A stretch of DNA of 25,964 nt from a virus. The stretch spans positions 1-25,964 of the IMG/VR virus record IMGVR_UViG_3300048839_000913; one strand, written 5' to 3'. This document shows positions 2,486 through 24,410 of the stretch, piece by piece. Both the position numbers and the translations under genes were made by a program. The notes under the pieces were generated by a model. It saw only the letters and a list, made by a program, of their open reading frames with translations. It was not told the DNA's origin and did not search any database. The number at the start of each line of letters is the position of its first letter. Position 1 is the first letter of the stretch.

Positions 2486-2518
2486 GCTACGGGGGCGGGC
2501 TAACCCCCGCCCCGTAGC
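2486..2518 (+). terminator. Post-capsid hairpin without T tract
   Basis: GCTACGGGG pairs with CCCCGTAGC, and after a single bulged G the inner CGGG pairs with CCCG, around a small loop. No T run follows, and the next gene starts 14 bp later, so full termination is unlikely. It probably protects the capsid mRNA 3' end or partly lowers expression of genes downstream of the abundant capsid message. Confidence 0.5.
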
Positions 2519-2532
2519 GAACGGAGTGACGT

Positions 2533-4238: not shown

Positions 4239-4243
4239 ATGCA

Positions 4244-4579
4244 ATGGCAAGACAATCTAAGACAGTGGAGCTGGTTGTACCGGGCGGGCTGGCCCCGACC
4301 TACGCCAACGCCCACGCCGACGGGCACGCAATTCCCTGGTCGAAAGACATGTTTCTCCATGTCAAGCAGACGACCGGGGCGCGGGTGCTGACGGTGAAAG
4401 TGGGTGAGACGTTTGAGGGCCGGGTCATCACGTCGCGCACCGTCACCGTGGCAGAGAACACCGACCCCTTCATCGGCCCGTTTAGCGACCGCTACATGCA
4501 GTCGGACGGGACGATTCATATCGACTGGGACGCGACGACCAATACGACATTCGCCGCGCTGCGGCTGGGGGTGAGCTAA
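4244..4579 (+). CDS. Small beta-rich structural protein, function unknown
   Basis: A 111-aa protein rich in valine, threonine and glycine. It has a pattern often seen in one small protein of actinobacterial and other siphophages: a first strand with ELVVPGGLAPTY, a middle VTVAENTDPFIGPFSDRY and a final DGTIHIDWDATTNTTFAALRL. The 'fIGPF...y...dGtv.v.y....n...aalr' phrase is recurrent in those phages, but its role is not known to me. GAGG lies nine bases before the ATG. The stop overlaps the next ATG (TAATG). It is likely virion-associated by position. Confidence 0.6.
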   Translation: MARQSKTVELVVPGGLAPTYANAHADGHAIPWSKDMFLHVKQTTGARVLTVKVGETFEGRVITSRTVTVAENTDPFIGPFSDRYMQSDGTIHIDWDATTNTTFAALRLGVS

Positions 4580-5031
4580 TGACCGACAAGAAACAGATGG
4601 TTGGCGTTCGGCGGTTGCCCGGCCCGGTGGTTCACACCATTGGGGAATACGAATGGAGCGCGGCCAACGGCTTTATGACCGAGGTGGACATTGAGACGGC
4701 CGCCGGGCTGCTGACCGAGCCGCGGGGCCGCTTCTCTCTGGCCCCCGGCCTGTCAGTGGCGGGCCGCAAGGCGCTGGCTGAGGCGATGGGCGTAGAGCCG
4801 AAAAACATCATTATCCCCGAAGCCGACGCCCCCGCGCCGACTGCGCCAGAGGTAACGGTGTCCAACATCGTCGGCGGCAAGCGGGCGCCTGAGTTGGCCG
4901 CGCTGGGTGTGACTGAGGCGCGGCAGTTGGCGGCGCTGGACGACGAAGGAATTGAGCGGCTGGCGGCATCGTCGGGCGCGAGTCGTGAAGAAGTGCGGGC
5001 CTGGGCTAACCAGGCCAAGCAAGGACGTTAG
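4579..5031 (+). CDS. Tail-module protein with C-terminal helix-hairpin-helix-like domain
   Basis: A 150-aa protein. The N-terminal part (about 1-75) contains PGPVVHTIGEYEWSAANGFM and a SLAPGLSVAGRKALAEAMG stretch and has no family I recognise. After a proline/alanine linker (80-92), the C-terminus (about 95-148) reads as two helix-hairpin-helix units: VGGKRAPELAALGVTEARQL, then DDEGIERLAASSGASREEVRAW. It has the G-x-K-x-A-x-x-L, G-[IV]-T and 'SxxxVxxWxxQA' pattern of HhH/DUF4332-type domains. HhH units usually bind DNA or protein, which is odd between tail genes. Translation is coupled to the gene before it by TAATG. Confidence 0.55.
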   Translation: MTDKKQMVGVRRLPGPVVHTIGEYEWSAANGFMTEVDIETAAGLLTEPRGRFSLAPGLSVAGRKALAEAMGVEPKNIIIPEADAPAPTAPEVTVSNIVGGKRAPELAALGVTEARQLAALDDEGIERLAASSGASREEVRAWANQAKQGR

Positions 5032-5038
5032 GTGAAGC

Positions 5039-5569
5039 ATGGCAAACGAGACATACGGTAAGTTTCTGTACGGCTTGCGCGACCTGAAGGTGACGAACAT
5101 CGGCGGGACGGTGCAAGAAGACCTTGACGCGGCGCAGACGTTGACGTTTTCTCCGACCTTTAGCTCGGCGGAATTGCGCGGCGATGACGTGATTAAAGTC
5201 AGTATGGGCAGCCTGTCGGGCGGCACGGCGGCGCTTTCGGCCGGTGGCTACAGTAGCGCGGCCGTGGCGATCATGTTCGGCAAGACGCTCAGCCAGTCCG
5301 GCACGACGCCGAATGAGTTGACGACGCTGCAATTGAACGCGGGCGATGTCATGCCCTACTTCAAGATTTACGGCTTGGCCCGCGACGAGGCCGGCGGCGA
5401 TGTCCACGTCCTGCTCCCCAAGTGCAAGGTGACGGGCTGGGGCGGCATCGACCTCTCTGATGAAAACTGGTTTGTCAATTCCGTGGATGTGCAGTGTCTT
5501 GACGACGGCTCTAATGGCGTTGTCAAGATTATCCAGCACGAGGCCACGACCGCCCTGCCGACCAGCTAA
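5039..5569 (+). CDS. Major tail (tube) protein
   Basis: A 176-aa beta-rich protein that should polymerise into the tail tube. It carries the features of Siphoviridae tube proteins: an N-terminal strand with FLYGLRDLKVTNIGG, a SAELRGDDVIK segment (about 43-53; 'elrGdd' is typical), a central sandwich, and a C-terminal NSVDVQCLDDGSNGVVKI strand. It lies just before the assembly chaperone and tape measure genes, the invariant tube position. AGGTGA lies six bases before the ATG. The gene is followed by a GCAA-capped hairpin (5587-5606). Confidence 0.82.
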   Translation: MANETYGKFLYGLRDLKVTNIGGTVQEDLDAAQTLTFSPTFSSAELRGDDVIKVSMGSLSGGTAALSAGGYSSAAVAIMFGKTLSQSGTTPNELTTLQLNAGDVMPYFKIYGLARDEAGGDVHVLLPKCKVTGWGGIDLSDENWFVNSVDVQCLDDGSNGVVKIIQHEATTALPTS

Positions 5570-5586
5570 GCGGACGCAACGAAGAA

Positions 5587-5606
5587 GGGGCCGGGCAACC
5601 GGCCCC
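5587..5606 (+). terminator. Post-tail-tube hairpin with GCAA tetraloop
   Basis: GGGGCCGG (5587-5594) and CCGGCCCC (5599-5606) form a perfect 8-bp stem capped by GCAA, a stable GNRA tetraloop. No T tract follows, and the next ribosome site AGGAGG begins nine bases later. It is best read as an mRNA stabiliser or partial terminator after a highly expressed gene, matching the hairpin after the capsid gene. Confidence 0.5.
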
Positions 5607-5625
5607 TGTCACATAGGAGGAAAAT

Positions 5626-6054
5626 GTGACGGATAGACTGGCGACATGGCGGGCAGCCACGGCCCCGCGTGAAATCACACTCGCAGACGGTCGCACGATG
5701 CTCGTCAAGCGCGTGCGGCTGGAAAGCCTCATCGCCAGCGGCACTATTCCGGTGACGTTGATGCAGCGGGCGACGCGCATGAAACCCCGCAAGGGCGGTG
5801 AGTACAGCGAAGAAGATACGGCCGCCTACGTCAAGGCGGTGGGCGCGGTTGTTATGGCCGTGGCCGTTGACCCGCAAGTGACGGTTGACGGCGCGGGCGA
5901 CAGCATCGCCCTGGACAGTATCGACTTCCTCGACCAGCAAGAGATTTTTATGGAGGTGAACCGGCCGGTCGCGGCGGTTCAATCCTTTCCTGTCGAACCG
6001 AACGGAAGTGATGTTGCTGCACCTGATGGCGAGAACCTACAGCCAGCGGCCTAG
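5626..6054 (+). CDS. Tail assembly chaperone (gpG-like, first frame)
   Basis: A 142-aa protein between tail tube and tape measure genes, where siphophages encode chaperones that bind the tape measure during tail assembly. It starts at GTG with a perfect AGGAGG five bases upstream. Visible parts are a short beta N-terminus (REITLADGRTMLVKRV), a helical middle with EEDTAAYVKAVGAVVMAVAV (about 66-85), an IDFLDQQEIFMEVNRPV helix (about 103-119) and a flexible alanine/proline tail. The last 30 codons overlap an open +1 frame (5960-6190) that ends exactly at the tape measure start. This is the arrangement of the two-frame chaperone genes. Confidence 0.75.
   Translation: MTDRLATWRAATAPREITLADGRTMLVKRVRLESLIASGTIPVTLMQRATRMKPRKGGEYSEEDTAAYVKAVGAVVMAVAVDPQVTVDGAGDSIALDSIDFLDQQEIFMEVNRPVAAVQSFPVEPNGSDVAAPDGENLQPAA
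5986..5992 (+). other. Possible +1 frameshift site TCC-TTT-C
   Basis: In the chaperone frame the codons are CAA-TCC-TTT-CCT (5980-5991). The Phe tRNA reading TTT (5986-5988) could slip +1 onto TTC (5987-5989), keeping full pairing at the first two bases and improving the third. Translation would then continue CTG-TCG-AAC in the frame of the second chaperone part. No in-frame stop lies between 5960 and 6188 in that frame. The exact slip position is inference; any site from 5960 to 6052 is possible. Confidence 0.35.
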
Positions 6055-6190
6055 CGCCATTGTCGGTATCGACGACGAATGGGCGGCGTATCAATTCGAC
6101 GCGGCCGTGCTGATTGAATCGCTAGACGACAGCGGCGGCAAGGGTAAGCCCGCAGGGGCGGGCGATTGGAGCGCACTGGCTAGACTATGA
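5987..6190 (+). CDS. Second part of tail assembly chaperone (gpT-like, +1 frame)
   Basis: An open frame with clear protein character but no convincing ribosome site of its own. Possible independent starts are GTG 6008, ATG 6011 and ATG 6026; the first two have only GGAAG one to three bases before them. The core RPSAIVGIDDEWAAYQFDAAV resembles the conserved part of second-frame chaperone products in other siphophages ('RPS-lLGI-dey-Ay-fD-A'). The stop overlaps the tape measure start (ATGA). I expect it to be made as a C-terminal extension of the upstream protein by frameshifting. This needs +1 or -2, unlike the -1 shift of lambda G-GT. Confidence 0.6.
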   Translation, partial: FLSNRTEVMLLHLMARTYSQRPSAIVGIDDEWAAYQFDAAVLIESLDDSGGKGKPAGAGDWSALARL

Positions 6191-9100
6191 CCGTAGACCT
6201 CGGAACCGCACGCGGGCGCATAGAGATAGATGCCGCTGGCGTTGACAAGGGCGTAAAGCAGGCCCAGTCGGCGCTAACCCAGTTTGGCGGCATGGCGACG
6301 AAGGCACTTGTCGGCGTCGGCGTGGCAATGGCGGGCGTCCAGACGGCCGTGGCCCTGATGGGCAAGGCGTGGCAGACATTCGAGCGCGGGGCGCAGATTG
6401 ACGCCATGCAAAACCGCTTTGAGCGACTGGCGGATAGCATCGGCTCTAGCGGCGACGCGCTCATGGCCCGGCTGCAAGAGGCTACCAACGGCATGATGAC
6501 CTCGGCCGAACTCATGTCGTCGGCCACGGACATCATGTCGCTCGGCCTGGGCAAGACGGAAGACCAGACAGTTAGACTGGCGACAGTCGTCGGTAAACTG
6601 GGCTGGGATATGCAACAAGTCATTCTGACTTTTGCGAACAATTCCAAGATGCGACTTGACGCGCTTGGCCTGTCAGTGGAGGACGTGACCAAGCGGGCGA
6701 AAGAGCTAGAGGAGCAGGGCTACAGCACGGACGCCGCGTTCGACATGGCCGTGATTGAGGCGGGCGAGGCCAAAGTCGAGTTACTTGGCGACGCCAGTCA
6801 GACGACGGCGGGCAAGCTAAAGATATTACAAACGGCCGTTGCAGAGGCTCGAGACACGTTTGCTACCGCCTTTACTGACCAGTTGTTAGGGCAAGTAGAG
6901 GAGCTTACCAATAGCACGGAGGAGCTTGCCGAGCAGATGCAATACGCCGCCGCCGGCGCGGGCGAGTTAGCCGCGGCGGCGTCTCGCCCCGGTCTTAACC
7001 TGCTGGTCGGCTTTGGTAAGATGGCCGAGGTGCGATCGCTGGGGAAGGCATACCAGGAACTTGGCGGCGACCTTGCCGCACTACAGGCGGAGTATCAGGC
7101 GCTATTTTCCGGCCGGTTGCGCGAAGAAGAAGAAGAAGAAGCGATCCAGAGGTTGCGCGAAGAGGTTGAGCTTCTGGAAATGAGCGCCAAACTGCGCGAC
7201 CCAAAGGCGTGGGAAGAGTATTACGCACCGGCTGTTAAAAAAGCAGCTGAGGCCAGAGCAGCCGCGGCGGAGTTTTCCGGCACGGCGCTAAACCTAGCTA
7301 CACATCTGACCATCGCCGGGGAGCGGTTCAAAGACGCAACTATCGGCGGCGGCAAGTTTGGCGACCAACTAGACGCGGTGGCCGACAAGGCCGCTAGGAC
7401 GCGGGCGGCGCTAGACGAAGCGGCTCAGCGGGCGCAAGCCTACGCCGCCGCGTTCGGCGCGGTGGAAGGCGACTATACGACCGAGCTACAAGGCGCTGAT
7501 GAACCACTGGTTACGCCAGCGCAAACGGTCAGCGTGACGACGCAAGTCAGCGGCCCGACTGAGGCGCAGCGGCAGGCGGTGGTGGCCTACACCGGCGAAC
7601 TGGAAAGCCTACGTCAAAAATACTTCGACCTGACCAACGGCGTCGGCACGTTCGGGATGGAACAGGGCAAGCTCGACGAGGCTATAGCCGAGACGGCCGG
7701 AGAGATAGCGCATTACGAGGGGCTGCTGGCCGGTATCCCGCCGGCGGTCAATGACGTGTCCACTTCGCAGCAGGGGCTATCGGTCAACGTAAGCGCGGTG
7801 CGACAGGGCATCTACGACCAGCTAGTAGAGATGCAAGCCGCGCCAGAGATTATCACGGCCTACGCCACGGCGACGGGCATCATGTCTAGCGCCCAGGCCG
7901 AAGCGGTACTACAGGCGGCGGCCGTCAAGGTCAAAATCGAGGAACTGGCGACGGCCATCGCCGCCGGCATGCCCATCGACAAGGCGCTGGCCGATCTGGA
8001 CGCCTTTATCCTGAAAATGGAGCAGGGCGTACAACCGGCAGCGGCGACGATGGCGACGACCGTCCCGCAAGACGTGGCCGATATGGGCCTTGCCATGTGG
8101 GGCGAGGCCATTACGGCCGGCGAAGGCGTACCCGAAGGCGTGGCGCAGGGAATCAACGATAGTCTGGATACGGCCACGACGGCCGCCACCGACGCGGCCG
8201 ACGCTATCACCGGCGCGGTGCGCGTCGCCCACGGTATCGAGTCGCCCTCTAGTGTCTTTGCCGAGATTGGGGCGCAGGACATCGCCGGGCTGATTGAGGG
8301 CGCGGCCGGCATGGAAGGCGAGGCGGTGGACACGATGGAGGGCATCGGCCAGTCCACTACCGACGCCTGGGATGCGACGATTGCGGCGTCTGAGGGTATC
8401 GGTCAGTCCATTATGGACGGCATTATCGCCGGGGTGGAATCGCGGCGCGGCGCGTTGCAATCGACAATGGAATCTGTCGCCGCCGATGCGACCAGTACAA
8501 CCGAAGGCGCATTTAAGATTGAATCGCCGTCGCGGGTATTTATGGACATCGGCCGCAAACTGATTGATGGCGTCATCGTGGGCGTGGAGCGCACGGAGCG
8601 GGCCATGATGGAGCGGCTCAGGACGTTGGCCGGGGATGCGCGAGACACGTTCCTAAATGAACTTCTAGCTTTTGAGCGGTTCGGTATTGTCGCGGCGCTA
8701 GGAGAGGCGGCCGAGGGACTACTCAGTATTGGCGATAGCGTGTTTGGCCTACAGTCTAACACGCTGGCAACCAACATAGACGAGACGACGGCGCAGATGG
8801 TGGCCGCGATGAACGCCCTGCGCGGGGCATATGGCGATATTCGGGTGGATAACCTGCTAGAGATGACACCCGACGAACGTGCCTACTTCCTCCAAACGTT
8901 GCGCGGCGACCAGCACTATACCAACGACATTGACGCCCGCTTGCGACTGGACGAGGCGATCCGGCTGGCCCACGAGCGCAATGAGCTGGAACGCGAATAC
9001 GTCCGGCAGCAAGAGGAGTTGGCCGCGCTGGAAGAACAGCGGTCGCGGCTTGACTTCCTACAGACGCAAGTAGACCTGCTGAACCTCATCCGCGAGAACA

Positions 9101-9552
9101 ACCTGGGCGCCGACATCCTGGACGGCCTGACGCTGGGGCTTGACGCCTCCATGACCGACATTCTGGCGGCCATGACCGAGGCCACGCGGCAGCTTATCGA
9201 GCGTGCCAATGACGAACTGGAGATCGCGTCGCCGTCGGCCGTTTTCCAGCGCATAGGCGAGCAGGTCATGGAGGGGTTAGCCGAAGGGCTGTCCTACACC
9301 CGCGACGTACAGAGCCGGGTGCGCGACGCGCTAGGCCGCATGACCAACGTCGGGCTGGCCGATGCACGGCAGTTGGAAAGTCGTTTGCGGGCCGGACTGA
9401 ATCAGACGTTGCGCCTTGACGCGGGCGGGCTGGCCCCGGCGCAGACGCTCTACAACTACGGCGGGCTGCATATCTCTGTGGCCGACGGGACGACGGCCGA
9501 CCAGGTGCGCCAGATGTTCTTCAACGGCCTGCTATATCAGGGAGGGGCGTAG
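6187..9552 (+). CDS. Tape measure protein
   Basis: 1121 aa, the longest tail-core gene, which sets tail length and is later threaded out ahead of DNA. At about 0.15 nm per residue it implies a tail near 165 nm. It has an N-terminal TP901-type region (MTVDLGTARGRIEIDAAGV, then helices to about 230), a hydrophobic helix near 35-58, coiled coils (about 300-330 with a run of six glutamates; 930-975) and three copies of an I-x-SPS-x-VF-x-x-IG motif at 684-695, 778-789 and 1013-1024. Such SPS repeats are common in tape measures and are usually followed by a GL/GV helix. A (GAA)6 tract lies at 7123-7140. No lysozyme or peptidase motif is evident. Confidence 0.93.
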   Translation: MTVDLGTARGRIEIDAAGVDKGVKQAQSALTQFGGMATKALVGVGVAMAGVQTAVALMGKAWQTFERGAQIDAMQNRFERLADSIGSSGDALMARLQEATNGMMTSAELMSSATDIMSLGLGKTEDQTVRLATVVGKLGWDMQQVILTFANNSKMRLDALGLSVEDVTKRAKELEEQGYSTDAAFDMAVIEAGEAKVELLGDASQTTAGKLKILQTAVAEARDTFATAFTDQLLGQVEELTNSTEELAEQMQYAAAGAGELAAAASRPGLNLLVGFGKMAEVRSLGKAYQELGGDLAALQAEYQALFSGRLREEEEEEAIQRLREEVELLEMSAKLRDPKAWEEYYAPAVKKAAEARAAAAEFSGTALNLATHLTIAGERFKDATIGGGKFGDQLDAVADKAARTRAALDEAAQRAQAYAAAFGAVEGDYTTELQGADEPLVTPAQTVSVTTQVSGPTEAQRQAVVAYTGELESLRQKYFDLTNGVGTFGMEQGKLDEAIAETAGEIAHYEGLLAGIPPAVNDVSTSQQGLSVNVSAVRQGIYDQLVEMQAAPEIITAYATATGIMSSAQAEAVLQAAAVKVKIEELATAIAAGMPIDKALADLDAFILKMEQGVQPAAATMATTVPQDVADMGLAMWGEAITAGEGVPEGVAQGINDSLDTATTAATDAADAITGAVRVAHGIESPSSVFAEIGAQDIAGLIEGAAGMEGEAVDTMEGIGQSTTDAWDATIAASEGIGQSIMDGIIAGVESRRGALQSTMESVAADATSTTEGAFKIESPSRVFMDIGRKLIDGVIVGVERTERAMMERLRTLAGDARDTFLNELLAFERFGIVAALGEAAEGLLSIGDSVFGLQSNTLATNIDETTAQMVAAMNALRGAYGDIRVDNLLEMTPDERAYFLQTLRGDQHYTNDIDARLRLDEAIRLAHERNELEREYVRQQEELAALEEQRSRLDFLQTQVDLLNLIRENNLGADILDGLTLGLDASMTDILAAMTEATRQLIERANDELEIASPSAVFQRIGEQVMEGLAEGLSYTRDVQSRVRDALGRMTNVGLADARQLESRLRAGLNQTLRLDAGGLAPAQTLYNYGGLHISVADGTTADQVRQMFFNGLLYQGGA

Positions 9553-11489
9553 TGTCATACACGACGCGGGTTATCTCAATTGGCGACCTCAACGTGGAAA
9601 GCGGCAGCGGCTATGAGGCTACGCTGCTGCAATCCTACATTCAGCCGGAAGCGGTTGTGACCCGCGCCCCGCGCGACCACGATTCGCCGGCCGCCATTCA
9701 CGTTGCGCCGGGCGTTAGCGAGTACATCCTGACGGCCCTTGTCGTGGGCGAAGGCGTTGACGCCGACACCCTGGACGCCCGCCGCCGGGCGCTCATGCGG
9801 GCGCTGGACACCACCCGCGCCCCGGTGACGGTGACGATTGAGAACCAGACCGGCACGGCGCGGCGGCGTTACATGAACATGGTCGTCATCAAGCCCGACC
9901 AGGTAGCCGGGCAGGTGGGGCAGGGGTTCGCGGCCCGGATGCAGCCGGCCGACGACGTGCGCTGGCGCAGCGTCAATAGCGAATTCGAGACGTTTGAGCT
10001 AACCGCCACGGCCACGCACTCGGTCAGCGTATCGGGCGACCTGGACGTGTTGCCGCAAATTCACATCACCCCGACGAGCGACAAGGATGTGCCCCGCTGG
10101 GAGTATCGCCGCCGGTTCATCATCGACTGGCGTAGCGAGACGGGTGGTATTCATACGGTGGACGTGAGCGGGCCGGACAACCTGAATACGTCGGCACTCC
10201 TGTCGGCGGGGAAGATCACCGACGAGACCAACGTCGGTGTGACGTTTATGAACAGCGCCTTTGTGCGGCGCGACTTCGGCGGTTTTGGCAGCACGACAAC
10301 GAAGGTCTGGATCACCGTCAACTTTGCGCCGGGCGCGGCGGTGTATCTGATGGCGGCCGTCGGTGCGTCGGCCACGACGATAGCCATAGAGGACGGGATG
10401 CGCCTGCCGCCGTCCGGGGCGCTGATGATTGACAGCGAAATCATCACCTATAGCGGCCGCACGGATACGAAGCTTTACAGCGTCGGGCGTGGGGCGTTCG
10501 ACACGACGGCCGCCAGTCATGGCGCGGATTCACTCGCCAGAACGGTCTACGTCGGCTACATCCTCTACGGTCCGAACGCGACCACGCCGACGCCGGTTCC
10601 GGGCCGCGACGACCTCCTGCCGAACCTTGACCTGGAACTATCGACTAACGACACGTGGTACTACAACTCAACCCGCGCCGGGTTCAACAGCGGCCCGACG
10701 CGGCCGGGCGCGTGGAAGTACTCGCAGTGGGGCGGGGAGAGTAATGACCTGTGGTACACGTCAGCCTCGACGGCCGCGGGCGGGTATAGCGACCTGCGGA
10801 CGCTGCCGTGGCGGGCGCTGGGGCTGAGGCCGGGGCGGGCTGAAATGGCGTTCTTCTCCAATCGCTTTGCCCTGCCGATTAGTAACGTGCGCGTGCTGGG
10901 CCGGCGCATGGTGGCGGCCGATGAGGAGACCTATCCCGGTGCGCCGCGTCTGACCATCCTTGACGACGCCTTCGACCAGTCCACATCCTGGGACGCGGGC
11001 GCGGAGGTCTACCCGCCGCCGCCGAACCAGACATTTGACGTGAGCCATAACCCGATATTGGCGGGCTGGGAGCAGTTCGGGGGAACCTTGCCGCCGCAGC
11101 GCGTCCGGTGGGGTTTCGTCGGCACGAACCACGTCCAGGCCGACATTCAAGAGATGTACGTCTCTTTCTACGATGAGCCGACCATTACGCTAGGGGCCGA
11201 AGATACAGACTACGACCTCGACTTCACCATCACCAACGAGACGACGGGCGAGGCTATCACCATTAAATTCCCCGACATGGCCCCCAACGAGACGCTGGTC
11301 ATCGACGGCGAAGAGCGGACGGTCATCTACACCGGCGACGGCAGCACGCGCTATGACGTGGTTTCCCGCAACGCCCCGCGCCCGCACTTTCTGAGCCTCG
11401 CGCCGGGCACGAACTCGATCAAGTTTGAGGAGGACGGCATGGGCGCGATGGAGGTCTATCTATCATGGCGGCCGAGGTGGTACACATAA
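9552..11489 (+). CDS. Distal tail protein (Dit-like) with large inserted domain
   Basis: 645 aa starting at GTG that overlaps the tape measure stop, with GGAGGGG four bases upstream. The N-terminal third (about 1-165, YTTRVISIGDLNV ... 'dtldaRRraLmraLd' ... strands with RRRYMNMVV) and the last 100 residues (about 545-645, with TGEAITIKFPDMAPNETLVI and a closing LSLAPGTNSIKF) fit the ring and galectin-like halves of siphophage Dit proteins, which link tube to baseplate. Between them lies an insertion of nearly 400 residues. It includes a small domain at about 272-325 (GALMIDSEIITYSGR, then RGAFDTTAASH) of a kind recurrent in phage tail proteins, and a carbohydrate-binding-like beta region (about 355-540). 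Such inserts make 'evolved' Dit adhesins. Confidence 0.72.
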   Translation: MSYTTRVISIGDLNVESGSGYEATLLQSYIQPEAVVTRAPRDHDSPAAIHVAPGVSEYILTALVVGEGVDADTLDARRRALMRALDTTRAPVTVTIENQTGTARRRYMNMVVIKPDQVAGQVGQGFAARMQPADDVRWRSVNSEFETFELTATATHSVSVSGDLDVLPQIHITPTSDKDVPRWEYRRRFIIDWRSETGGIHTVDVSGPDNLNTSALLSAGKITDETNVGVTFMNSAFVRRDFGGFGSTTTKVWITVNFAPGAAVYLMAAVGASATTIAIEDGMRLPPSGALMIDSEIITYSGRTDTKLYSVGRGAFDTTAASHGADSLARTVYVGYILYGPNATTPTPVPGRDDLLPNLDLELSTNDTWYYNSTRAGFNSGPTRPGAWKYSQWGGESNDLWYTSASTAAGGYSDLRTLPWRALGLRPGRAEMAFFSNRFALPISNVRVLGRRMVAADEETYPGAPRLTILDDAFDQSTSWDAGAEVYPPPPNQTFDVSHNPILAGWEQFGGTLPPQRVRWGFVGTNHVQADIQEMYVSFYDEPTITLGAEDTDYDLDFTITNETTGEAITIKFPDMAPNETLVIDGEERTVIYTGDGSTRYDVVSRNAPRPHFLSLAPGTNSIKFEEDGMGAMEVYLSWRPRWYT

Positions 11490-12310
11490 AAGCCGCAGTT
11501 ACAACCCTTGCGCTTCTGGCCCTGGCGACGGTGGCGGCTACGGCCGCGGCCCAGCCGGAGCCGGCGCTGCTATTCGTCATGAGCGGGCAATCCAACGCCG
11601 GGCAGCAGGCCGCGCCGGGACAGGTTGCCCCGGCCGACGCCGCGCCGGTGAGCGGGGCGTTCTACTACGCGCCGCAACACACGAAAACGCAAACCCTGGG
11701 GCCGATGCAGCCCTATCGGGGCGCGTTCGGCCCAGAGCTTAGTTTTGCCCGCGCCATTCGGGCGGCATGTCCAGGGCGCACGGTCATTGTCGCCAAGCGG
11801 TATCTTGGCGGCACGTCGATTATCGCCTGGGAACCGACCGCGCCTAATGCCCAATGGAAGCGCGACATGGCGGCCGTCGGGCACGCGACCAAGCCGCCGC
11901 AGTACGCTCCGCTGGCGCAGACGGTGGCCCAGGCCGTCGCCCGCTACGGCGGCCCGGTGGAGTATGCCGGTGTACTCTGGCTACAGGTGGAACGCGACAG
12001 CCGCTATACCTATGGCGCGGTGCGATATGAGGGCAACTTGCGACGGCTCATTGCCGCCTGGCGCAATGAGTGGCACTCCCCCGCCATGCCGGTGGTAGCG
12101 ATGGACAGTCACACACAGTTAGACGACGGCGGCGCAACGGTGCATCAGGCTATCGTAGACGTAGCCGCGACCGTGCCGGGCGTGGGTTGGGTAGAGACCC
12201 GCGACCTATCGACGAAGGCGGACAACATTCACTTCGATAGCGCCGGTGTCGTGACGTTTGGCGAACGACTGGCGGCCGAGTGGCTACGACTGTCTGGGGG
12301 GTGCGGCTAA
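11465..12310 (+). CDS. SGNH hydrolase, sialate O-acetylesterase-like, with signal peptide
   Basis: 281 aa. Residues 1-29 look like a Sec signal peptide (K9, hydrophobic 11-28, AAA before Q30). The catalytic core follows the SGNH/SASA plan: block I SGQSNAG with nucleophile Ser43, a GGTSIIAW stretch (115-122), a strand LWLQVERDS (171-179) and block V ADNIHF with Asp253 and His256. The family normally has Q-G-E-[SAN]-D; here it reads Q-V-E-R-D, a Gly-to-Val change near the oxyanion region. The likely role is removal of acetyl groups from a host surface polysaccharide. GGAGGT nine bases upstream supports this start inside the previous gene's end. A secretion signal in a tail cluster is unusual. 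Confidence 0.72.
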   Translation: MAAEVVHIKAAVTTLALLALATVAATAAAQPEPALLFVMSGQSNAGQQAAPGQVAPADAAPVSGAFYYAPQHTKTQTLGPMQPYRGAFGPELSFARAIRAACPGRTVIVAKRYLGGTSIIAWEPTAPNAQWKRDMAAVGHATKPPQYAPLAQTVAQAVARYGGPVEYAGVLWLQVERDSRYTYGAVRYEGNLRRLIAAWRNEWHSPAMPVVAMDSHTQLDDGGATVHQAIVDVAATVPGVGWVETRDLSTKADNIHFDSAGVVTFGERLAAEWLRLSGGCG

Positions 12311-15323: not shown

Positions 15324-18300
15324 ATGGCGACGCGCTACGTCAACAATGCAACCGGCAGCAACGCCAACGCGGGCACGTCCAGCGGTTCGCCGTGGAAGAC
15401 ACTGGCCTACGCCTACACCAACACGGCCGCGGGCGACACCATCTATCTACAGTCATCGACCTGGAATGAGGCGCTTGACCTGAAGAAAGCGAACCAGACG
15501 TGGGCAGCCCAGAGCGGCCACACGCCGATACTGGACGGGCGCTATCATGATGGGCTATTCCGCGCCAACGGGACATTGCCCGCGCCCAACGACGTTCCTA
15601 ATGCGGTCGTCCGCGGCTGGACGCCGATGCTCAACATTGACGCGACCGGCATCAATGTCATCGGCCTGACCATTCAGAACAGCGGCGGCCGTGGGATGTA
15701 CGTCGCCAGCGGCAACGACATCAAAATCAGGAATAACCGCATCGACTTCACCTATGACGCGGGCCTGTCGTCGGGCGACACCGGGCCACTCAAGACCGGC
15801 TGCGAGATTACCGGCAACGTCATCACCCGCTCAACGTTCAAGGCGTACGACCCGACCAAGAACGGCAACGAGCTGGAGAAAGAGGGCGTCAGCCAGTCGA
15901 TGAAAGTGGCGCGGTACAAGAACGTCCTGGTATCCGGCAACATCTGCGCCTATAGCGCCGGGGAAGGTATCGACCTGGGCAAGGGCAGCGAGGGGATTGT
16001 CTGTGAGAACAACATCTCATTCAATCACCGGCATATCCACATCTATATGATGTACAGCAAGGACACGATTGTGCGTAACAATCTGGTGTTCTTTGCCGGC
16101 AACCTGCCGCAGACGCTTAACGGCAAGGGTAAGGCGGCCGTCGGTATCTCGATTCGGGATGAGGTCAGCGGCGCGAAGAAGGGCTATCCGGCGCAGTCCG
16201 GGGCGCAGATTTACAACAACATCGTTATCGGCAACGGGGCGCTCATCCTCATCGACGGTAACGAGAAAAAGACCACAGTTGACAGGCTATGGATTGCCTA
16301 CAACACGCTCGTCGGCGGGCCGTTGACGGAAGACGCGGCGCTGCTGATTAACCAGCCCGGCGAAGGACGGCCGCCGCACCGGGGCATCGTTGAGAATAAC
16401 GTCATCGACATGCGTTTCAGCCACGCCGACGGACGGTGTACGCAGGGCAGCTATTCGAGCGGCCTCGTCTTCCGTAACAACTGCTGGTCGAAACAGTCCG
16501 AGATAGCGGCCACGCGCGGGGCGAATGACCAGGTAGGCAGCCCGGCATTGGCGAACGCCGGGGCGACGCTGACCGCCACGTGGTCGAGCGGGCCGGGCGC
16601 ACCGGCGACCAACATCAACCCCAACAACTACAAGCTCACGTCATCCTCGACTCGCTGCATCGACCTGGCCTCCAACGGCAGCGCGGCGGGCGGGTTCACG
16701 CCGCCGGCGCTGAATCGGGACTACTTCGGGGCCAGTCGTGGGGCCAACAAAGACATTGGGGCGCATGAGTTCGGCGGCGTCGTTGCCAACGACATTGCCG
16801 CCAGCTTCGCCCAGTCGCCGTCGTCCGGGGCCGCGCCGCTAACCGTCCAATTCAATGACACGTCGCAAGCCTACGGGGCGGCGGTTATCAACTCATGGAG
16901 TTACAACTTTGGTGACGGCACGACCTCAACGCAACGCAACCCGGCCAAAACCTACACGGTGGCCGGAACCTATCAGGTGACGTTGACCGTACAGGACACG
17001 GCCCTTGGCCTGACCAGCACCTACACCGGGCCGCTTATCACCGTCGGCTCGACGCCGACCGACAGCGTGACGGCCAACTTCTCCCTTGACCCGGCCAGCG
17101 GCGTAGCGCCGCTTGAAGTCCAGTTCACCGACGCATCGACCACAACCGGCGCGGCCGTTATCAATAGCCGCACGTGGTTCTTTGGTGACGGCGACACGGC
17201 GACGACAACGAACCCGACTCACACTTACACGACGCCGGGCGTTTATCAGCCGGCGCTCGTGGTCGAGGATACGGTGCTAGGACTGACGAATACCTACGCC
17301 GGGCTAACGCTCGTGGTGGAGGCATCAACGATTGATAGCGTCATTGCCGACTTCTCCGCGACGCCCCTCTCCGGCGTTGCGCCACTGGCGGTGACATTCA
17401 CCGACGAATCATCGGACACCGGCGCGGCGACCATTGATAGCTACGCCTGGGATTTTGGCGACGGCGGCACATCGACGACCGCCAGCCCTGGTTACACCTA
17501 CGCCACGCCGGGGGTGTACTACCCTCAGCTAACGGTTTCCGACACGGCGCTCGGCCTGTCCGACACCCACGCGGGCGCGGCCGTTATCGTCACCGCGCCG
17601 GGCGGCGGGGCGACGGTGGCTATCCGGCAGACGCGGGCGGCGCTGCGGACGTCGGACGGCAGTCAGACTATCACGGCCGCCGGGCTGGGCGGTCTTATTC
17701 CGAGCCGGGCCATTCTGCGATTGACCGGGGCCACGGCCGACAACACGGCCGCCGACGGGTCGCTGATGTCAGTCGGCTTCGTCACCAGCCAGAGTAATCA
17801 GGCCGCGTGCGTGGTGGCGTCGCAACACGGCGCGGCGACAACCAACGGGGCGCGGTGGATGGTAGACGGCGCGTGCCTCGTCATCATCGACGCCAACGGC
17901 GCGGAGGTCGGCCGGGCCACGTTCACCGGCTGGGTGGCCGACGGGCTTGAAATGTCCGTTGACTGGACAGGCACGCCGGCGGCCTATCTGGTGACGGTGG
18001 AGTTTGCCGGGGGGACTGAGTATCAGGCATACGCCGCCCTCGTCACGGTCGGCGGCGTCGGCTCGACGCTTGACGTAAGCGGCGGCTTCGCGCCCGACGC
18101 GGCGCGGTTCGCCACGACGTGGGCCATGACGCCCCAGCCTGACGCGACTATCGCGTTTGGCCTGGCTCATAGAGAAGGTGTCCAGTACGGCATTGAACGC
18201 CACCACGCCGACGGGCTGGCCGACGCCTCGCTCACCGGCCGCTTCTACGATAACTACGTTCTACCCTGTCGCTACACACCGACGACGTGGGGCACGGTCG

Positions 18301-19298
18301 GCGCGACGGCCTGGACGGGCAGCGCGTTGACGCTGACCGTCGCCGGTGGGCAGGTCAACAACAGCCTCATGGTGCTCCTGGAGAAGTTCGGCACGTCACG
18401 CTCGACGGCCGGGCTACTGACAAGCGGATCGGGCACGCAGACCGAGACGCTAGGCTGGACGCCTCAGGCGGTGATGCACCTGGCGTCAACGCGGCAGGAG
18501 ATGGGCACGAAGAACAACGCCACATCCGGCACGCTGGGGCTACATTCGGTGACGGCCGATGGGGAGTACACCGACACCATCAGCGGCGAACACGGCGCGG
18601 CAACGACAGACGAGCAGAGCCTGAGCGACAACGCCCTGACGCTGCCGGGCCACGACGGGGCGACGGTCGGCGCGGCCACAACCGCGCTGGCGGCGACGGG
18701 CTACACGATTACCTGGGGAACCGCGCCGGCGACGGCCGTCCTGTGGCCGCGGCTGGCCGTTGAGGTCGGGACGAGCATCGCCACGCTGACGGCCGACTTC
18801 ACCGCCGAACCGCGTGCGGGGTCGCTGCCGCTGACGGTCCAGTTTACCGACCTGAGCGGGCCGGACGTGACAAGCTGGCTGTGGTCGTTTGGCGACGGCG
18901 CGACTTCGACCGAGCAGAACCCGGAACACACCTACACCGAAGGCGCGTTCTTCACCGTCTCGCTCGCCGTCTCGGACGGCACGGACACGGCCGAAGTGAC
19001 CAAGAGCGGCTACATCGCCGTGACCCAGCGCGTGCGGCGGCGGGTGATTATTGGGCCGTACCTGATGACAAGCGTCACGCCGACCAGTCGCAACGAGACA
19101 CAGTGGGCGGCCGACAGCGACGAAGTGCCGTCGGGTTCCATGTCGGCGGCGCTGGAACTGGACTATCTGCCGCTGCGGGACGACCCGGACACGCCGACGG
19201 CCGAAGGCGGCGTAGTGAAGATTTACAACCACCCGGCCACGGGCGACCTGAAGCGGGTGGACGGCGGCGGGGCCGTCGGGACGATAGACGTAACATGA
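15324..19298 (+). CDS. Tail spike: right-handed beta-helix plus four PKD domains
   Basis: 1324 aa, the probable receptor-binding protein or depolymerase. Residues 1-480 are a pectate-lyase-like beta-helix: the DUF1565-type opening RYVNNATGSNANAGT and AGDTIYLQ, then coil turns such as IRNNRI, ITGNVI, VSGNIC and VENNVI. Three PKD domains follow (about 494-575, 582-668, 674-758; each with [FW]xFGDG), then two related beta domains (about 770-950 and 1035-1145, sharing HGAATT at 835 and 1090), then a fourth PKD (about 1156-1238, WSFGDGATS) and a short C-terminal region. PKD domains usually bind glycans or space enzymes. The catalytic residues of the helix cannot be assigned by eye. AGGAG precedes the ATG. 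Confidence 0.8.
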   Translation: MATRYVNNATGSNANAGTSSGSPWKTLAYAYTNTAAGDTIYLQSSTWNEALDLKKANQTWAAQSGHTPILDGRYHDGLFRANGTLPAPNDVPNAVVRGWTPMLNIDATGINVIGLTIQNSGGRGMYVASGNDIKIRNNRIDFTYDAGLSSGDTGPLKTGCEITGNVITRSTFKAYDPTKNGNELEKEGVSQSMKVARYKNVLVSGNICAYSAGEGIDLGKGSEGIVCENNISFNHRHIHIYMMYSKDTIVRNNLVFFAGNLPQTLNGKGKAAVGISIRDEVSGAKKGYPAQSGAQIYNNIVIGNGALILIDGNEKKTTVDRLWIAYNTLVGGPLTEDAALLINQPGEGRPPHRGIVENNVIDMRFSHADGRCTQGSYSSGLVFRNNCWSKQSEIAATRGANDQVGSPALANAGATLTATWSSGPGAPATNINPNNYKLTSSSTRCIDLASNGSAAGGFTPPALNRDYFGASRGANKDIGAHEFGGVVANDIAASFAQSPSSGAAPLTVQFNDTSQAYGAAVINSWSYNFGDGTTSTQRNPAKTYTVAGTYQVTLTVQDTALGLTSTYTGPLITVGSTPTDSVTANFSLDPASGVAPLEVQFTDASTTTGAAVINSRTWFFGDGDTATTTNPTHTYTTPGVYQPALVVEDTVLGLTNTYAGLTLVVEASTIDSVIADFSATPLSGVAPLAVTFTDESSDTGAATIDSYAWDFGDGGTSTTASPGYTYATPGVYYPQLTVSDTALGLSDTHAGAAVIVTAPGGGATVAIRQTRAALRTSDGSQTITAAGLGGLIPSRAILRLTGATADNTAADGSLMSVGFVTSQSNQAACVVASQHGAATTNGARWMVDGACLVIIDANGAEVGRATFTGWVADGLEMSVDWTGTPAAYLVTVEFAGGTEYQAYAALVTVGGVGSTLDVSGGFAPDAARFATTWAMTPQPDATIAFGLAHREGVQYGIERHHADGLADASLTGRFYDNYVLPCRYTPTTWGTVGATAWTGSALTLTVAGGQVNNSLMVLLEKFGTSRSTAGLLTSGSGTQTETLGWTPQAVMHLASTRQEMGTKNNATSGTLGLHSVTADGEYTDTISGEHGAATTDEQSLSDNALTLPGHDGATVGAATTALAATGYTITWGTAPATAVLWPRLAVEVGTSIATLTADFTAEPRAGSLPLTVQFTDLSGPDVTSWLWSFGDGATSTEQNPEHTYTEGAFFTVSLAVSDGTDTAEVTKSGYIAVTQRVRRRVIIGPYLMTSVTPTSRNETQWAADSDEVPSGSMSAALELDYLPLRDDPDTPTAEGGVVKIYNHPATGDLKRVDGGGAVGTIDVT

Positions 19299-19318
19299 CC
19301 TCAGAGGTAACTATCTAA
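19295..19318 (+). CDS. Seven-codon coupling mini-ORF MTSEVTI
   Basis: An ATG overlapping the tail spike stop (ATGA, 19295-19298) opens a frame of seven codons, MTSEVTI. It ends at TAA 19316-19318, and that last A is the first base of the next gene's ATG (TAATG). It thus bridges the two genes without a gap, and contains the AGAGG ribosome site of the downstream gene. It probably passes terminating ribosomes onward rather than making a functional peptide. Confidence 0.35.
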   Translation: MTSEVTI

Positions 19319-19665
19319 TGTCGCCCGCTGCGGCTGACACCATCCGCGCCGCCGCCGATGTGGTGCAATGGCTGAATCTAGCAACCTGGCTAGCCATTCT
19401 GCTATTGGCGCTGGAAATGGGGCGGCGCTGGCGGACGGCGCGGCCGTATCTGGCCGGGCCGGTATCATTGGGAGCGCACAATATCCTCTTTTACATCGTC
19501 GCTCTTGGGCCGGGAATGCCCGGCCCGGTGGCGTCGCTGTGGTCGGCGTTGCGCGTCTTCCATATCGCGCTCGTCATTCTAGCTGTCCTTGTGGCTGCGT
19601 TTGCCGTGGCGTTATCCCCCACCCCGCCCGATTGGCGCGGTTATGAGGGTGCGCCGCATGAGTAG
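19318..19665 (+). CDS. Small membrane protein, possible holin-type
   Basis: 115 aa with three likely membrane segments: about 17-34 (VVQWLNLATWLAILLLAL), 44-64 (around LGAHNILFYIVALGPG) and 76-98 (LRVFHIALVILAVLVAAFAVAL). Basic residues lie between the first two (RRWRTARP). Its size and position after the tail spike and before two further membrane proteins suggest the lysis region, and three-TM proteins can be class I holins, but no family is recognised. AGAGGT lies ten bases upstream. Its end overlaps the next start by eight bases. Confidence 0.5.
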   Translation: MSPAAADTIRAAADVVQWLNLATWLAILLLALEMGRRWRTARPYLAGPVSLGAHNILFYIVALGPGMPGPVASLWSALRVFHIALVILAVLVAAFAVALSPTPPDWRGYEGAPHE

Positions 19666-20197
19666 CACCACGAGCGCCATTATTGCGGCGCTGGCGGGCG
19701 TGGCGTTGATCTCCGTCCTGGTCGGTCTCATGGCCTACTTCGCCGGGCGGCGCGGGCCGTCCGACGGCTACCGGCACTATGAGCAGGCGTTGGCCGACAT
19801 GCAGCAACGGTTAGAGCGCACCGAACAACGCAGTGACCGACAACAGGAACAAATCGACCGGCTGCGCGATATGCTGGCACAAGAGCAGGACTACAACCGC
19901 GCATTGGCCCGCGCCATTAGGGACGCGGGCTTAGAGCCGCCGCCGCGGCCGGGCGGCAGTGGCAACACAGAGACCACGCGCGGCAGTGACCGGGCGGCTC
20001 TGGCCCGGCACATCGCTGAATCATTCTCGCTAGACGAGATAGACGGTATCGCATTCGAGCTAGGGATGGACGGGGCGTTAACGGGCGATTCACTGGAAAC
20101 CCGCGCCTCGTCTCTTGTGTTGACCGCCTGGCGGCGGCAACGGCTATCGGAGTTGGAAGTCCTATGCCGTAGAGAGCGGCCGCGAGGGGGATTCTAA
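19658..20197 (+). CDS. Membrane-anchored coiled-coil protein with EAD/death-like C-terminal domain
   Basis: 179 aa. It has a single membrane helix at 7-29, a long polar coiled coil at about 38-89 (ADMQQRLERTEQRSDRQQEQ region), a proline/glycine linker at 93-110 and a compact helical domain at 111-175. That domain reads FSLDEIDGIAFELGMD, then LTGDSLETRASSLV, then RRQRLSELEVLCRRERP. It matches the remembered pattern of effector-associated domains (EAD7-like/bDLD): 'L...l...Fs.dEl..l.fdLGid...L.G....r A..Lv.....r.rl.eL...crr.rP'. These domains normally connect effectors to NTPase or protease immune proteins in multicellular bacteria. Topology with a short N-terminus suggests a cytoplasmic C-terminus. 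The overall plan also resembles an i-spanin. GAGG nine bases before the ATG decides the start. Confidence 0.6.
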   Translation: MSSTTSAIIAALAGVALISVLVGLMAYFAGRRGPSDGYRHYEQALADMQQRLERTEQRSDRQQEQIDRLRDMLAQEQDYNRALARAIRDAGLEPPPRPGGSGNTETTRGSDRAALARHIAESFSLDEIDGIAFELGMDGALTGDSLETRASSLVLTAWRRQRLSELEVLCRRERPRGGF

Positions 20198-20198
20198 T

Positions 20199-20393
20199 AT
20201 GACTGAATACATTGTCAGGGCGGGCGCGCAAGGGGAACCGCCTCCCCCGCCGCCGCCGCCGCCCGATCCTGTTGAGTGGGTATCCGTGCCCGTCACTGAG
20301 TGGCAGCGTATTCAGGAATTGACCGCCGCGGCGCGGGCGTCGTTGGCTGAGTTGGCAGAGTTGGCAGAGTTGATTGAAGAACCGGCCGCCTAG
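20199..20393 (+). CDS. Small proline-rich protein with AEL repeats
   Basis: 64 aa starting two bases after the previous stop, with GAGGGGG eight bases upstream. It contains nine consecutive prolines (about 14-22) encoded by a CCG/CCC tract, then VEWVSVPVTEWQRIQEL, and a C-terminal acidic helix with three 9-nt tandem units at 20343-20369 encoding LAE-LAE-LAE. I recognise no family. Both tracts are prone to slippage. By position it belongs with the membrane protein cluster. Confidence 0.5.
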   Translation: MTEYIVRAGAQGEPPPPPPPPPDPVEWVSVPVTEWQRIQELTAAARASLAELAELAELIEEPAA

Positions 20394-20414
20394 ACGCGGC
20401 AAGGAGTTATGAGG

Positions 20415-20729
20415 ATGACCGATAATATCATTGCATCATTGGCCGGTGCAGTGCTGGCGTTGTTGTTCGGCTACGCGCCCGGCGTGCGTCAGTGGTATGA
20501 GGCATTGGAACCGACGCGGAAGGCGTTGGTCATGGCCGGGGCCTTGCTCATTGCGGCGTTGCTGCTGTATGGCGCGGCGTGCTATACGCCGTGGCAGGTG
20601 GGGGTGACGTGTGACGAGGCGGGCTTCTGGCAATTGGCTCAATTGTTCATTGCCGCACTGGTGGCAAATCAGGCGACCTATCTCATTGGCGTAAAACCGT
20701 CGCGTACGGCGACGGAGCGAACGGAGTAG
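20415..20729 (+). CDS. Membrane protein, probable holin-like
   Basis: About 104 aa with a first membrane segment at about 4-21 (IIASLAGAVLALLFGYAPG), a second at about 37-57 (VMAGALLIAALLLYGAACY) and an amphipathic third at about 68-92 (GFWQLAQLFIAALVANQATYLI). The arrangement 'FGYxPGxxxWxxALxPxxKxLxM' and 'GVTCDxAGxxxLxxxFxxALxANQAT' is common in unassigned phage membrane proteins near lysis genes, so a holin role is likely but unproven. ATG 20409 lies only two bases after AAGGAG, whereas ATG 20415 has an eight-base spacing, so I prefer 20415. Confidence 0.55.
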   Translation: MTDNIIASLAGAVLALLFGYAPGVRQWYEALEPTRKALVMAGALLIAALLLYGAACYTPWQVGVTCDEAGFWQLAQLFIAALVANQATYLIGVKPSRTATERTE

Positions 20730-20836
20730 GGGTAAGTATCGGGTTCGTGGCGTGGCGTCTAGCACGCGCCAACGTCGCAAGGCTGATGAGATTCTACAGG
20801 AACCCCGGCGCGGTTACGGTTTCCCGCGCCGCTTCC

Positions 20837-23186: not shown

Positions 23187-23577
23187 AGACCTGGTACTCC
23201 TGTTCGCTCATAAGTTCTAATTCGTCGGCCTTGCCTAGCGACACCTTGCGCCACTGGCCGTCTATTTTTTTCCACTGGCGACGGCGCGGATAGCGTTTGC
23301 CCGACTTGACCGGGAACTCAATCCACCCGCCGCGCTTGTCGGCAGAGGGTCGGCCGCGCTTCTTCAACGCGGCTTTTTGCCCACCCCGGGCCGGTTGCTC
23401 AGGGGTGGGCAAAACTGGATCGCCCGTGGGGTGGGCAAAACTTTCTCTCTGAGAATCTTTGCCCACCCCTATTTGCCCACCCCTAATAGGTGGACTTTTG
23501 CCCACCCCGCCGGGGTGCGCCGTCGGGCGGCTTTCCACCCTAACGGCCCCTTCGTCACGCTCCCTTGCGCTCGCCAC
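23131..23577 (-). CDS. Basic protein whose coding sequence carries the iteron cluster
   Basis: 148 aa starting at GTG (the stop of the upstream gene overlaps it as TAGTG). The N-terminal half (about 15-70) is low-complexity and is built from the 12-bp repeats read in different frames: GVGK, RGGQ, FAHPT and LPTPE. The C-terminal half (about 72-148) looks like a normal protein: KKRGRPSADKRGGWIEFPVK, then RYPRRRQWKKIDGQWRKV, then an EQEYQVYAELRERARAARRK helix. It is strongly basic, so nucleic-acid binding is possible. It could be an origin-binding protein whose gene holds the binding sites, but that is inference. Confidence 0.5.
   Translation of the reverse strand: MASARERDEGAVRVESRPTAHPGGVGKSPPIRGGQIGVGKDSQRESFAHPTGDPVLPTPEQPARGGQKAALKKRGRPSADKRGGWIEFPVKSGKRYPRRRQWKKIDGQWRKVSLGKADELELMSEQEYQVYAELRERARAARRKHRNG
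23376..23508. repeat. Iteron-like repeat cluster, TTTGCCCACCCC
   Basis: Six perfect 12-bp copies occur in 133 bp. Direct copies lie at 23376-23387, 23458-23469, 23472-23483 and 23497-23508. Inverted copies (GGGGTGGGCAAA) lie at 23402-23413 and 23428-23439. The starts of the first three are exactly 26 bp apart. A seventh copy lies at 22950-22961. Most copies are flanked by extra T or A on the T-rich side. The conserved unit is DNA, since the encoded peptides differ by frame. Confidence 0.7.
23505..23540. repeat. 37-bp imperfect repeat, copy 2
   Basis: This is the partner of the element at 22925-22961, immediately adjoining the iteron cluster. About three quarters of positions agree by eye. 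Confidence 0.4.
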
Positions 23578-24410
23578 TACTGGCGCGAAGTAGGGTTTCG
23601 CGCATCGGCCCCTCCGCTGAGTGGCTTACCCGGCGCACCGTTGCCGACATTGCCGCCCTGCCCCTGCCCCGGCGCGGGGTGCGCGGTCGTTTGTGGGGAG
23701 TGGGTAGAATTGCTTACCGGGTCAACGGCGCGGGCCACTGACAGAAAGGCGGCGATGTCGGCGGCCGTCAGGCGGGGTTGCTCCGGTTCCACAATGCGCG
23801 GCGCGTCCTGCCGGCCGCGTTCCATGATGTCGGGCACGCCGTTGCGGTCTTTGTCGGCGCGGATGTCGGCCAGCAGTTCACCGAACATCACGCCGGATAG
23901 CTCATGGCTCAACGCCTGTTGAGCGTCTACGCGGCGTTGTTTCAACGCGGTCAACGCCCCCTCAAAGATGGCGTCTTTCTCGGACTGGATAGCCATCTCC
24001 TTGCGGGCGTTGGGGTCGCCAAGATGGAAAATCAGCACGCCCAAGACGTTGACGGTCGTCCAAATGCCAATGCCCCAAATGGCGATTGTGCCGAGCATCT
24101 GCGGCGCGGCGGCCATCGTCTGACCACTCAGCAGAATCTCAGAGATAGTCATGAGGCCGACGCCGACGAAATTGAACAGGCAGAGGATGATACCCACGGC
24201 CCGCTGGATAGCGCCCTCGGCATGACTGAGGAACACGAATAGCCAACTAATCATGCCGACATCGAAGACGACAAGCCCCAAGAGGGGGACGATCCACATC
24301 TGGCCGGGAAGGGCCATGCTGAGGAAACTGTAGGTGAGGCTACTCGTCCAGGCAAGCAGGACGATAGCGACGCCATAGAACAGGAATTTAGCGATAGTAC
24401 GATTTAACAT
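23577..24410 (-). CDS. Four-TM protein with acidic DxDxNGxPD loop
   Basis: 277 aa. Four membrane segments are visible at about 8-32, 38-62, 69-93 and 106-130. A long cytoplasmic-type C-terminus follows: a coiled helix with ARKEMAIQSEKDAIFEGAL and KQRRVDAQQALSHEL (about 135-172), then DIRADKDRNGVPDIMERG (182-199), whose Asp186, Asp188, Asn190 and Asp194 form a calcium-loop-like motif as in thrombospondin-3 or dockerin loops. A helix TAADIAAFLSVARAV and a disordered Pro/Gly tail complete it. GGAG lies eight bases before the ATG. I recognise no named family. A signal-sensing or membrane-remodelling role would be guesswork. Confidence 0.6.
   Translation of the reverse strand: MLNRTIAKFLFYGVAIVLLAWTSSLTYSFLSMALPGQMWIVPLLGLVVFDVGMISWLFVFLSHAEGAIQRAVGIILCLFNFVGVGLMTISEILLSGQTMAAAPQMLGTIAIWGIGIWTTVNVLGVLIFHLGDPNARKEMAIQSEKDAIFEGALTALKQRRVDAQQALSHELSGVMFGELLADIRADKDRNGVPDIMERGRQDAPRIVEPEQPRLTAADIAAFLSVARAVDPVSNSTHSPQTTAHPAPGQGQGGNVGNGAPGKPLSGGADARNPTSRQ

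Follow-up and report, generated by a model that had tools for sequence, protein, structure and literature searches.

What would lead a phage to place, at the end of a small membrane protein encoded just behind its tail genes, a domain of the kind that bacteria use to wire immune effectors together? The 25,964-base stretch of virus DNA analysed here over its full length (hereafter the window) raises this question through a gene whose product, P0001, ends in an EAD7 domain. Effector-associated domains (EADs) are described as small domains, themselves not enzymes, that link effectors with core conflict systems, mostly in multicellular bacteria; EAD7 is counted among the effector-recruiting EADs, and the homotypic contacts of EADs are a prediction by the authors who described them (PMC7159879, PMC8195603). 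The EAD7 domain is thus already known; its occurrence in a membrane protein from the lysis region of a phage appears to be new, and the matches listed in the open-licence literature include no description of EAD7 in a phage.

A membrane protein ending in EAD7

The gene runs from an ATG at 19658 to a stop at 20195-20197, as the preliminary description of this DNA had placed it, and hydropathy finds one hydrophobic segment, at residues 8-26, in the 179-residue product, in keeping with the single membrane helix described there (Table 1). The AlphaFold2 model of P0001, built from a two-row alignment, has helices at residues 3-31 and 35-89, a stretch of low confidence at 96-107 and four helices within 104-173. 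The coiled coil that had been proposed to follow the membrane helix fares less evenly: a long helix is indeed modelled there, but its crude heptad score is no better than that of shuffled sequence, 120 of 500 shuffles being as good, and for this reason we speak of a long helix.

Table 1. Features of the window in and around the EAD7 gene
Feature	Position	Strand	Basis
PKD / beta-helix fibre-like protein, end of tail region	15324..19298	+	Pfam PKD, Beta_helix; G004 and the P. breve phage have similar beta-helix proteins close to their EAD7 genes
Small membrane protein with three transmembrane (TM) segments, 115 aa	19318..19665	+	ORF, hydropathy; overlaps EAD7 gene by 8 bases
EAD7 protein gene (P0001), 179 aa	19658..20197	+	open frame, translation; same-architecture homologues in G003/G004, G020 and the P. 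breve phage
Single transmembrane helix, residues about 7-26	19676..19735	+	hydropathy 2.66, flank charges
Long helix, residues 35-89, possibly coiled coil	19760..19924	+	AlphaFold2 helix 35-89
EAD7 domain, residues 116-175	20003..20182	+	PF19960 above cut-off; domain model; death-fold structural matches
C-terminal RGGF and stop	20183..20197	+	alignments, motif scan; end CRxxRPxGGF common to four carriers
Proline-rich 64-aa protein, directly downstream	20199..20393	+	ORF; hydropathy: no hydrophobic segment; no significant family match
2-TM protein, 106 aa	20409..20729	+	ORF, hydropathy; holin-like in size and topology only; no significant family match

Relatives were located through the major capsid protein, the tape-measure protein, tblastn and a scan for the C-terminal motif. 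EAD7 was found, with one match per record, in five of the 25 virus or plasmid records that were profile-searched, namely the window itself (G000), G003, G004, G020 and W01; G003 and G004 are 99.95% identical over 14.8 kb, which leaves four distinct carriers. W01 is the circular, 40,759-base 'plasmid III' (NZ_LN890657.1) of Candidatus Promineifilum breve, a member of the Chloroflexota, and with its terminase, minor head, protease and capsid genes, a tape-measure relative and a holin-like gene it holds a phage gene set and has the appearance of a phage or phage-plasmid genome that was deposited under a plasmid label; below we call it the P. breve phage. All four carriers have the same architecture, one N-terminal TM helix followed by a helix-like charged stretch and an EAD7 ending in CRxxRPxGGF, an ending that G020 has by construction because the motif scan that found it required it. 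Over the whole protein, identity to P0001 is 44% for the P. breve phage and 30% each for G004 and G020. The window, G004 and the P. breve phage also have in common the N-terminal part of the tape-measure protein (50-56% in local alignments; in a longer alignment with the window, 53% for G004 and 42% for the P. breve phage) and some fibre genes.

Beyond these records, tblastn of P0001, of the P. breve phage protein (P0003) and of the domain of the G004 protein (P0002) against 50,697 phage records gave no match, nor did blastn of window 19300-20800 or a viral scan with the protein of window 9552-11486, and among the plasmids searched a significant match came from the P. breve record only. One candidate locus, L001, was rejected as a homologue, its likeness being confined to a short stretch, RDAGLEPPP, of a long frame that is otherwise unrelated. 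A further record, G001 (L019), has a contig end identical to window 1-6778 and probably represents upstream sequence of this phage or of one nearly identical to it; at 10895-12231 it carries adjacent genes for QueC and a Vut_1 transporter, plus an N6/N4 DNA methylase, which suggests 7-deazaguanine base modification or salvage.

The C-terminal domain had been thought, from its motifs, to resemble EAD7, and this subtype was called correctly: residues 116-175 of the 179, at the very terminus of the protein, match PF19960 over positions 2-62 of its 62 with E 3.2e-9 and 36.9 bits, against a curated cut-off of 32 bits. The other distinct carriers score 39.8 (G004), 45.9 (P. breve phage) and 38.6 bits (G020), and the match spans positions 1 or 2 to 62 of the 62 in all four. 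When a model made from the other three domains was run against each carrier in turn it scored 79.7-101.2 bits, while the best of 2000 shuffles of each reached at most 12.1. Four distinct homologues above the cut-off, together with leave-one-out scores so far over the shuffles, rule out a chance resemblance to EAD7.

Modelled alone, the domain comes out as four helices (pLDDT 88.5, pTM 0.78), a helical bundle of the death-like class, in line with what had been expected of it. A second look with VIA-align at the 47 chains ranked highest by Foldseek placed at the top 8srz, a Lysobacter bacterial death-like domain, and 9frr, titled CARD, each with Z 8.0, rmsd 2.5 and 69 of 73 residues, although a Z under about 13 may mean just a common arrangement where helical bundles are concerned. 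Of the 22 rows listed, 14 carry a death, CARD or pyrin domain in their titles and six more are what we take to be death-fold domains, so that 20 of the 22 fall in this class by title or by our own assignment, ASC2 and a viral FLIP among them; a de novo design and a cullin model make up the remainder. Foldseek alone was weak for the domain model (best E 1.6, an ankyrin death domain), and a sequence search of solved structures, with matches accepted up to E 10, gave ten, all weak (best 0.0052) and none of them confined to EAD7. Because the Z scores fall below the level trusted for bundles, the identification as EAD7 is carried by the sequence profile, with the fold agreeing. For model m81813dc19435 compared with BFVD, the best viral match (E 0.16; TM 0.80, by target length) was A0A2H4P853, an uncharacterised 63-aa protein from Pseudomonas phage ventosus that is perhaps a stand-alone death-like domain in another phage.

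Pfam recognised no effector domain in P0001 besides the helix, and PADLOC gave weak matches to the helical part alone, the best of them (ZorA, E 0.0032) to the helical part of P0003. Weak PHROG matches to Rz-like spanins cover the membrane and long-helix part of P0001 (best E 7.4e-4) and of P0003 (best E 5.5e-4), and P0002 has none. Since P0001 joins its EAD7 only to a membrane helix and a long helix, we class it as an EAD7 domain protein and not as a known EAD system.

In each of the six carrier pairs the EAD7 domain is more conserved than the rest of the protein, with 42-68% identity against 20-60% (pair by pair, EAD7 and remainder, 42/21, 59/33, 42/20, 45/23, 68/60 and 54/27). Within the domain, all six pairs have fewer nonsynonymous than synonymous differences per site (0.24-0.43 against 0.58-0.77, the synonymous sites being near saturation). 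A fixed partner, or self-assembly, would explain such conservation no worse than an arms race would.

Gene neighbourhood and relatives without EAD7

The window holds major head, tape-measure and distal-tail genes in that order. Among the tail genes lies one for a carbohydrate esterase of sialic-acid type (SASA, E 6.5e-26; 11465-12310), and farther downstream the minus strand encodes at 23577-24410 an apparently membrane protein that is 64% identical over 216 aa to a G004 protein and belongs to no Pfam family. The P. breve phage, too, has a 3-TM gene immediately before the EAD7 gene, in the place that matches the window and with a 4-base overlap. In G004 the gene immediately after the EAD7 gene encodes a long protein with an M23 peptidase domain (E 1.3e-17), and a holin-like gene comes next (phrog_565, E 3.1e-7). 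The order in G020 is the same (M23, E 2e-17); its holin-like gene gives no Pfam holin match, and much of its DNA is 81% identical to that of G004. A holin-like gene of the P. breve phage (phrog_565, E 1.5e-6) lies past a beta-helix gene.

No lysin was recognised among 20 proteins of the window (15 scanned against Pfam and 15 against PHROGs, with several small genes, mostly on the minus strand, left out). When eight records were searched with the M23 profile, G004, G020 and G010 gave matches and the window, G001, the P. breve record, G011 and G016 gave none, and Amidase_2 matched nothing in any of the eight. The preliminary description had put the gene in a late region and a lysis cassette; it does follow the tail genes, and lysis genes stand beside it in G004 and G020, but the window itself yielded no lysin, and the lysis-cassette setting of the window gene is one that we infer from these two relatives.

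Cassettes of similar layout occur without EAD7. In G010 and G011, which are closely related to each other, a 3-TM gene, the gene for a 118-aa TM-helix protein and a 2-TM gene stand in that order, and G016 has a 131-aa TM-helix protein flanked by small membrane genes. The 118-aa protein stops shortly past the residues that line up with the beginning of the carriers' linker, and hhalign of the G010 and G011 proteins against the carriers gave a probability of 52 over 35 columns (E 1.4e-4). None of the eight records G010-G017 yielded a match, at E 1 or less, to a profile made from three carriers, so that kinship with the carriers rests on place, on layout and, for G010 and G011 only, on this weak hhalign match; homology of the EAD7-less proteins to the carriers is suggested, and weakly. 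Hydropathy of plus-strand frames by eye and the three-carrier profile recognised no such cassette protein in G014, and in the other relatives the contig ends near the tape-measure or capsid gene or that stretch was unread. With a similar-looking protein lacking EAD7 in G010, G011 and G016, the domain looks optional in the cassette protein. The tape-measure tree does not place the change as gain or loss: the three carriers stand on one side of a branch in 0% of 200 bootstrap trees, and they may still share a single origin. By the crude heptad score, the shuffles as good number, of 500, 1 for G004, 0 for G010 and 3 for G011 (clear cases), 15 for G016 (fair), 61 for G020 (weak) and 362 for the P. 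breve phage (no better than shuffled sequence).

On which side of the membrane would the domain lie? All seven TM-helix proteins, with or without EAD7, have no lysine or arginine before the helix and one to three within the following 15 residues (three in P0001), which by the positive-inside rule would put the C-terminal part in the cytoplasm. Because the N-tails are very short and the net charge following the helix is negative in three of the seven, this topology evidence is moderate at best, and a cytoplasmic EAD7 is weakly favoured by the sequences.

What a membrane-held EAD7 might do

We propose, with a probability of roughly 0.4, that the protein is a membrane-tethered adaptor which docks on hypothetical EAD7 immune proteins of the host late in infection, most likely as a decoy. 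The one N-terminal helix and the long helical spacer would anchor EAD7 at the inner face of the host membrane, and there the phage EAD7 might contact, homotypically, the EAD7 of hypothetical host immune or cell-death proteins, a contact that we envisage because EADs have been proposed as homotypic coupling domains. Held at the membrane and effector-less, the phage domain could then capture host EAD7 effectors and keep them off their core complex until the virions are ready, much as, by analogy, poxvirus pyrin-only proteins block inflammasomes. A protein with no enzyme attached, from a record with one EAD7, is as expected of a decoy, and the architecture suggests that the phage plugs into the death machinery of its host. 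Counter-defence genes are often early, and the P0001 gene stands among late genes, which counts against a decoy. For the proposal as a whole speak the family and predicted fold of the domain, its absence from like cassettes, its conservation and the lysine and arginine counts beside the helix; the limits given above for the Foldseek and Z scores, for the topology and for the homology of the EAD7-less proteins weigh on the other side. Sequestration of host EAD partners, a scaffold for counter-defence and a trigger of death, which the preliminary description had put forward, are likewise hypothetical roles. One carrier, the P. breve phage, is harboured by a Chloroflexota organism, and chloroflexi are among the reported sources of EAD-bearing VMAP-ternary systems (PMC7159879). 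On the analogy with viral decoys, effector capture is our first choice and the timing of lysis by death-fold assembly its main rival. In a wider and more tentative form, phages of filamentous bacteria may perhaps have captured an immune adaptor domain onto a lysis-cassette membrane protein, a bacterial counterpart of the viral death-domain decoys through which host suicide signalling would be either captured or used as a cue for lysis.

That main rival holds that EAD7, by self-assembly or by docking on an activated EAD7 complex of the host, clusters the protein and thereby triggers or times holin and lysin; in a variant of it, virions would possibly be released as soon as the suicide response of the host starts. 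Death-fold domains assemble homotypically, and the gene arrangement speaks for such a role, with the EAD7 gene immediately before the M23 endolysin-like gene and then the holin-like gene in G004 and G020 and, in both the window and the P. breve phage, overlapping the 3-TM gene. There is also a precedent in LypABC, a CARD-NLR-like system needed for lysis by the gene transfer agents of Caulobacter (PMC13236601). However, the like cassettes of G010, G011 and G016 are without EAD7, neither the window nor the P. breve record yielded a recognised lysin in the M23 and Amidase_2 searches, and membrane opening by this protein would be an assumption, so we consider control of lysis rather unlikely, if the most serious of the alternatives.

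A plain structural role, in which EAD7 serves only for oligomerisation or for docking with another protein of the phage and is unconnected with the immunity of the host, would sit well with EAD7 being the best-conserved part of the protein across carriers. Since the carrier records hold no second EAD7, any phage partner would have to be of another kind, or EAD7 itself. EAD7 is, however, known from immune and conflict proteins (PMC7159879, PMC8195603), PF19960 also matched a bacterial EAD7-TIR protein (see below), and the domain is absent from the like cassettes, all of which makes a purely structural role improbable.

Still less probable, in our estimate, is a phage-borne immune effector, for which EAD7 would couple the protein, in a lysogen, to the core immune system of the host against rival phages, as a form of superinfection immunity. 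EAD7 has been described as recruiting effectors to core systems (PMC7159879), and one carrier is kept as the circular 'plasmid III', which makes a lysogenic state possible. Against this, the gene is placed in the late structural and lysis block, and the searches for an effector domain came back with the weak PADLOC matches mentioned above. Lastly, an ordinary Rz-like i-spanin with a C-terminal domain that is EAD7-like by chance would account for the weak PHROG matches in P0001 and P0003 and for the small proline-rich gene next downstream in the window, but it is hardly credible with EAD7 above the cut-off in four of four distinct carriers, lysine and arginine counts that favour a cytoplasmic C-terminus, a 64-aa neighbour that offers neither a hydrophobic segment nor, by eye, a signal peptide or lipobox, and with the Chloroflexota being generally described as bacteria without an outer membrane. 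The charges beside the helix and the absence of an evident lipoprotein partner likewise argue against all homologues being i-spanins, a possibility that the preliminary description had raised, and it is disfavoured.

Death-fold domains link sensors to killers in animal immunity as in bacterial defence, and animal viruses counter with death-fold decoys, for which no phage equivalent was found among the open-licence matches listed. If docking on host EAD7 proteins is true, the phage would be directly attacking EAD-based immunity, or making use of it, and the conflict systems of this class are largely predicted computationally; it would also tie the control of lysis to host immune signalling and provide a small, testable handle on the binding partners of EAD7.

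Comparison with known systems

Set beside the EAD7 family (PF19960; Kaur et al. 2020, PMC7159879; Kaur et al. 2021, PMC8195603), the phage domain is alike in scoring above the cut-off over nearly the whole model, in being all-helical and in its terminal position. It differs in being encoded by phages, in its fusion to a membrane helix and a long helix, where the known members, as those papers present them, are fused to an enzymatic effector, a STAND NTPase or VMAP, and in having no second EAD7 in the carrier records. Among 392 relatives of a MAG titled Saccharibacteria, none of them known to be a Chloroflexota genome, we found one EAD7, in an EAD7-TIR protein on contig C62 of G036 (L054; 51.2 bits), where the domain is likewise terminal but at the N-terminus and joined to a TIR and a zinc-peptidase domain; PF19960 thus also detects EAD7 where the protein has a classical architecture. 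When it was scored with a model built from the four phage domains, this EAD7 reached a value that is not significant (5.0 bits, one of 2000 shuffles being higher), and because that model does not pick it out, the link between the phage domains and the G036 EAD7 runs through PF19960. The contig that encodes the EAD7-TIR-zinc peptidase may be a binning contaminant.

With the bacterial death-like domain of Lysobacter enzymogenes (8srz) the phage EAD7 shares the predicted fold at 14% identity, and the Lysobacter CARD belongs to a CARD-NLR defence system of the host (PMC13236601). Rz-like i-spanins (phrog_214, phrog_739, phrog_89) resemble P0001 in their N-terminal TM segment, long helix and lysis-region gene, whereas P0001 has a C-terminal EAD7, the opposite predicted topology and no o-spanin partner that we could see. 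LypABC offers a likeness of another sort, a death-fold machinery tied to the release of phage-like particles, the Caulobacter gene transfer agents; it is host-encoded, with peptidases and an ATPase (PMC13236601), where P0001 is a membrane protein with a death fold encoded by a phage. The closest parallel to the decoy that we favour lies outside bacteria, in the poxvirus pyrin-only proteins such as M013, effector-less viral death-fold proteins that block host assemblies homotypically (PMC3775265). Theirs is a pyrin domain in an animal virus, and what the two would have in common is an analogy of mechanism, not membership in one family.
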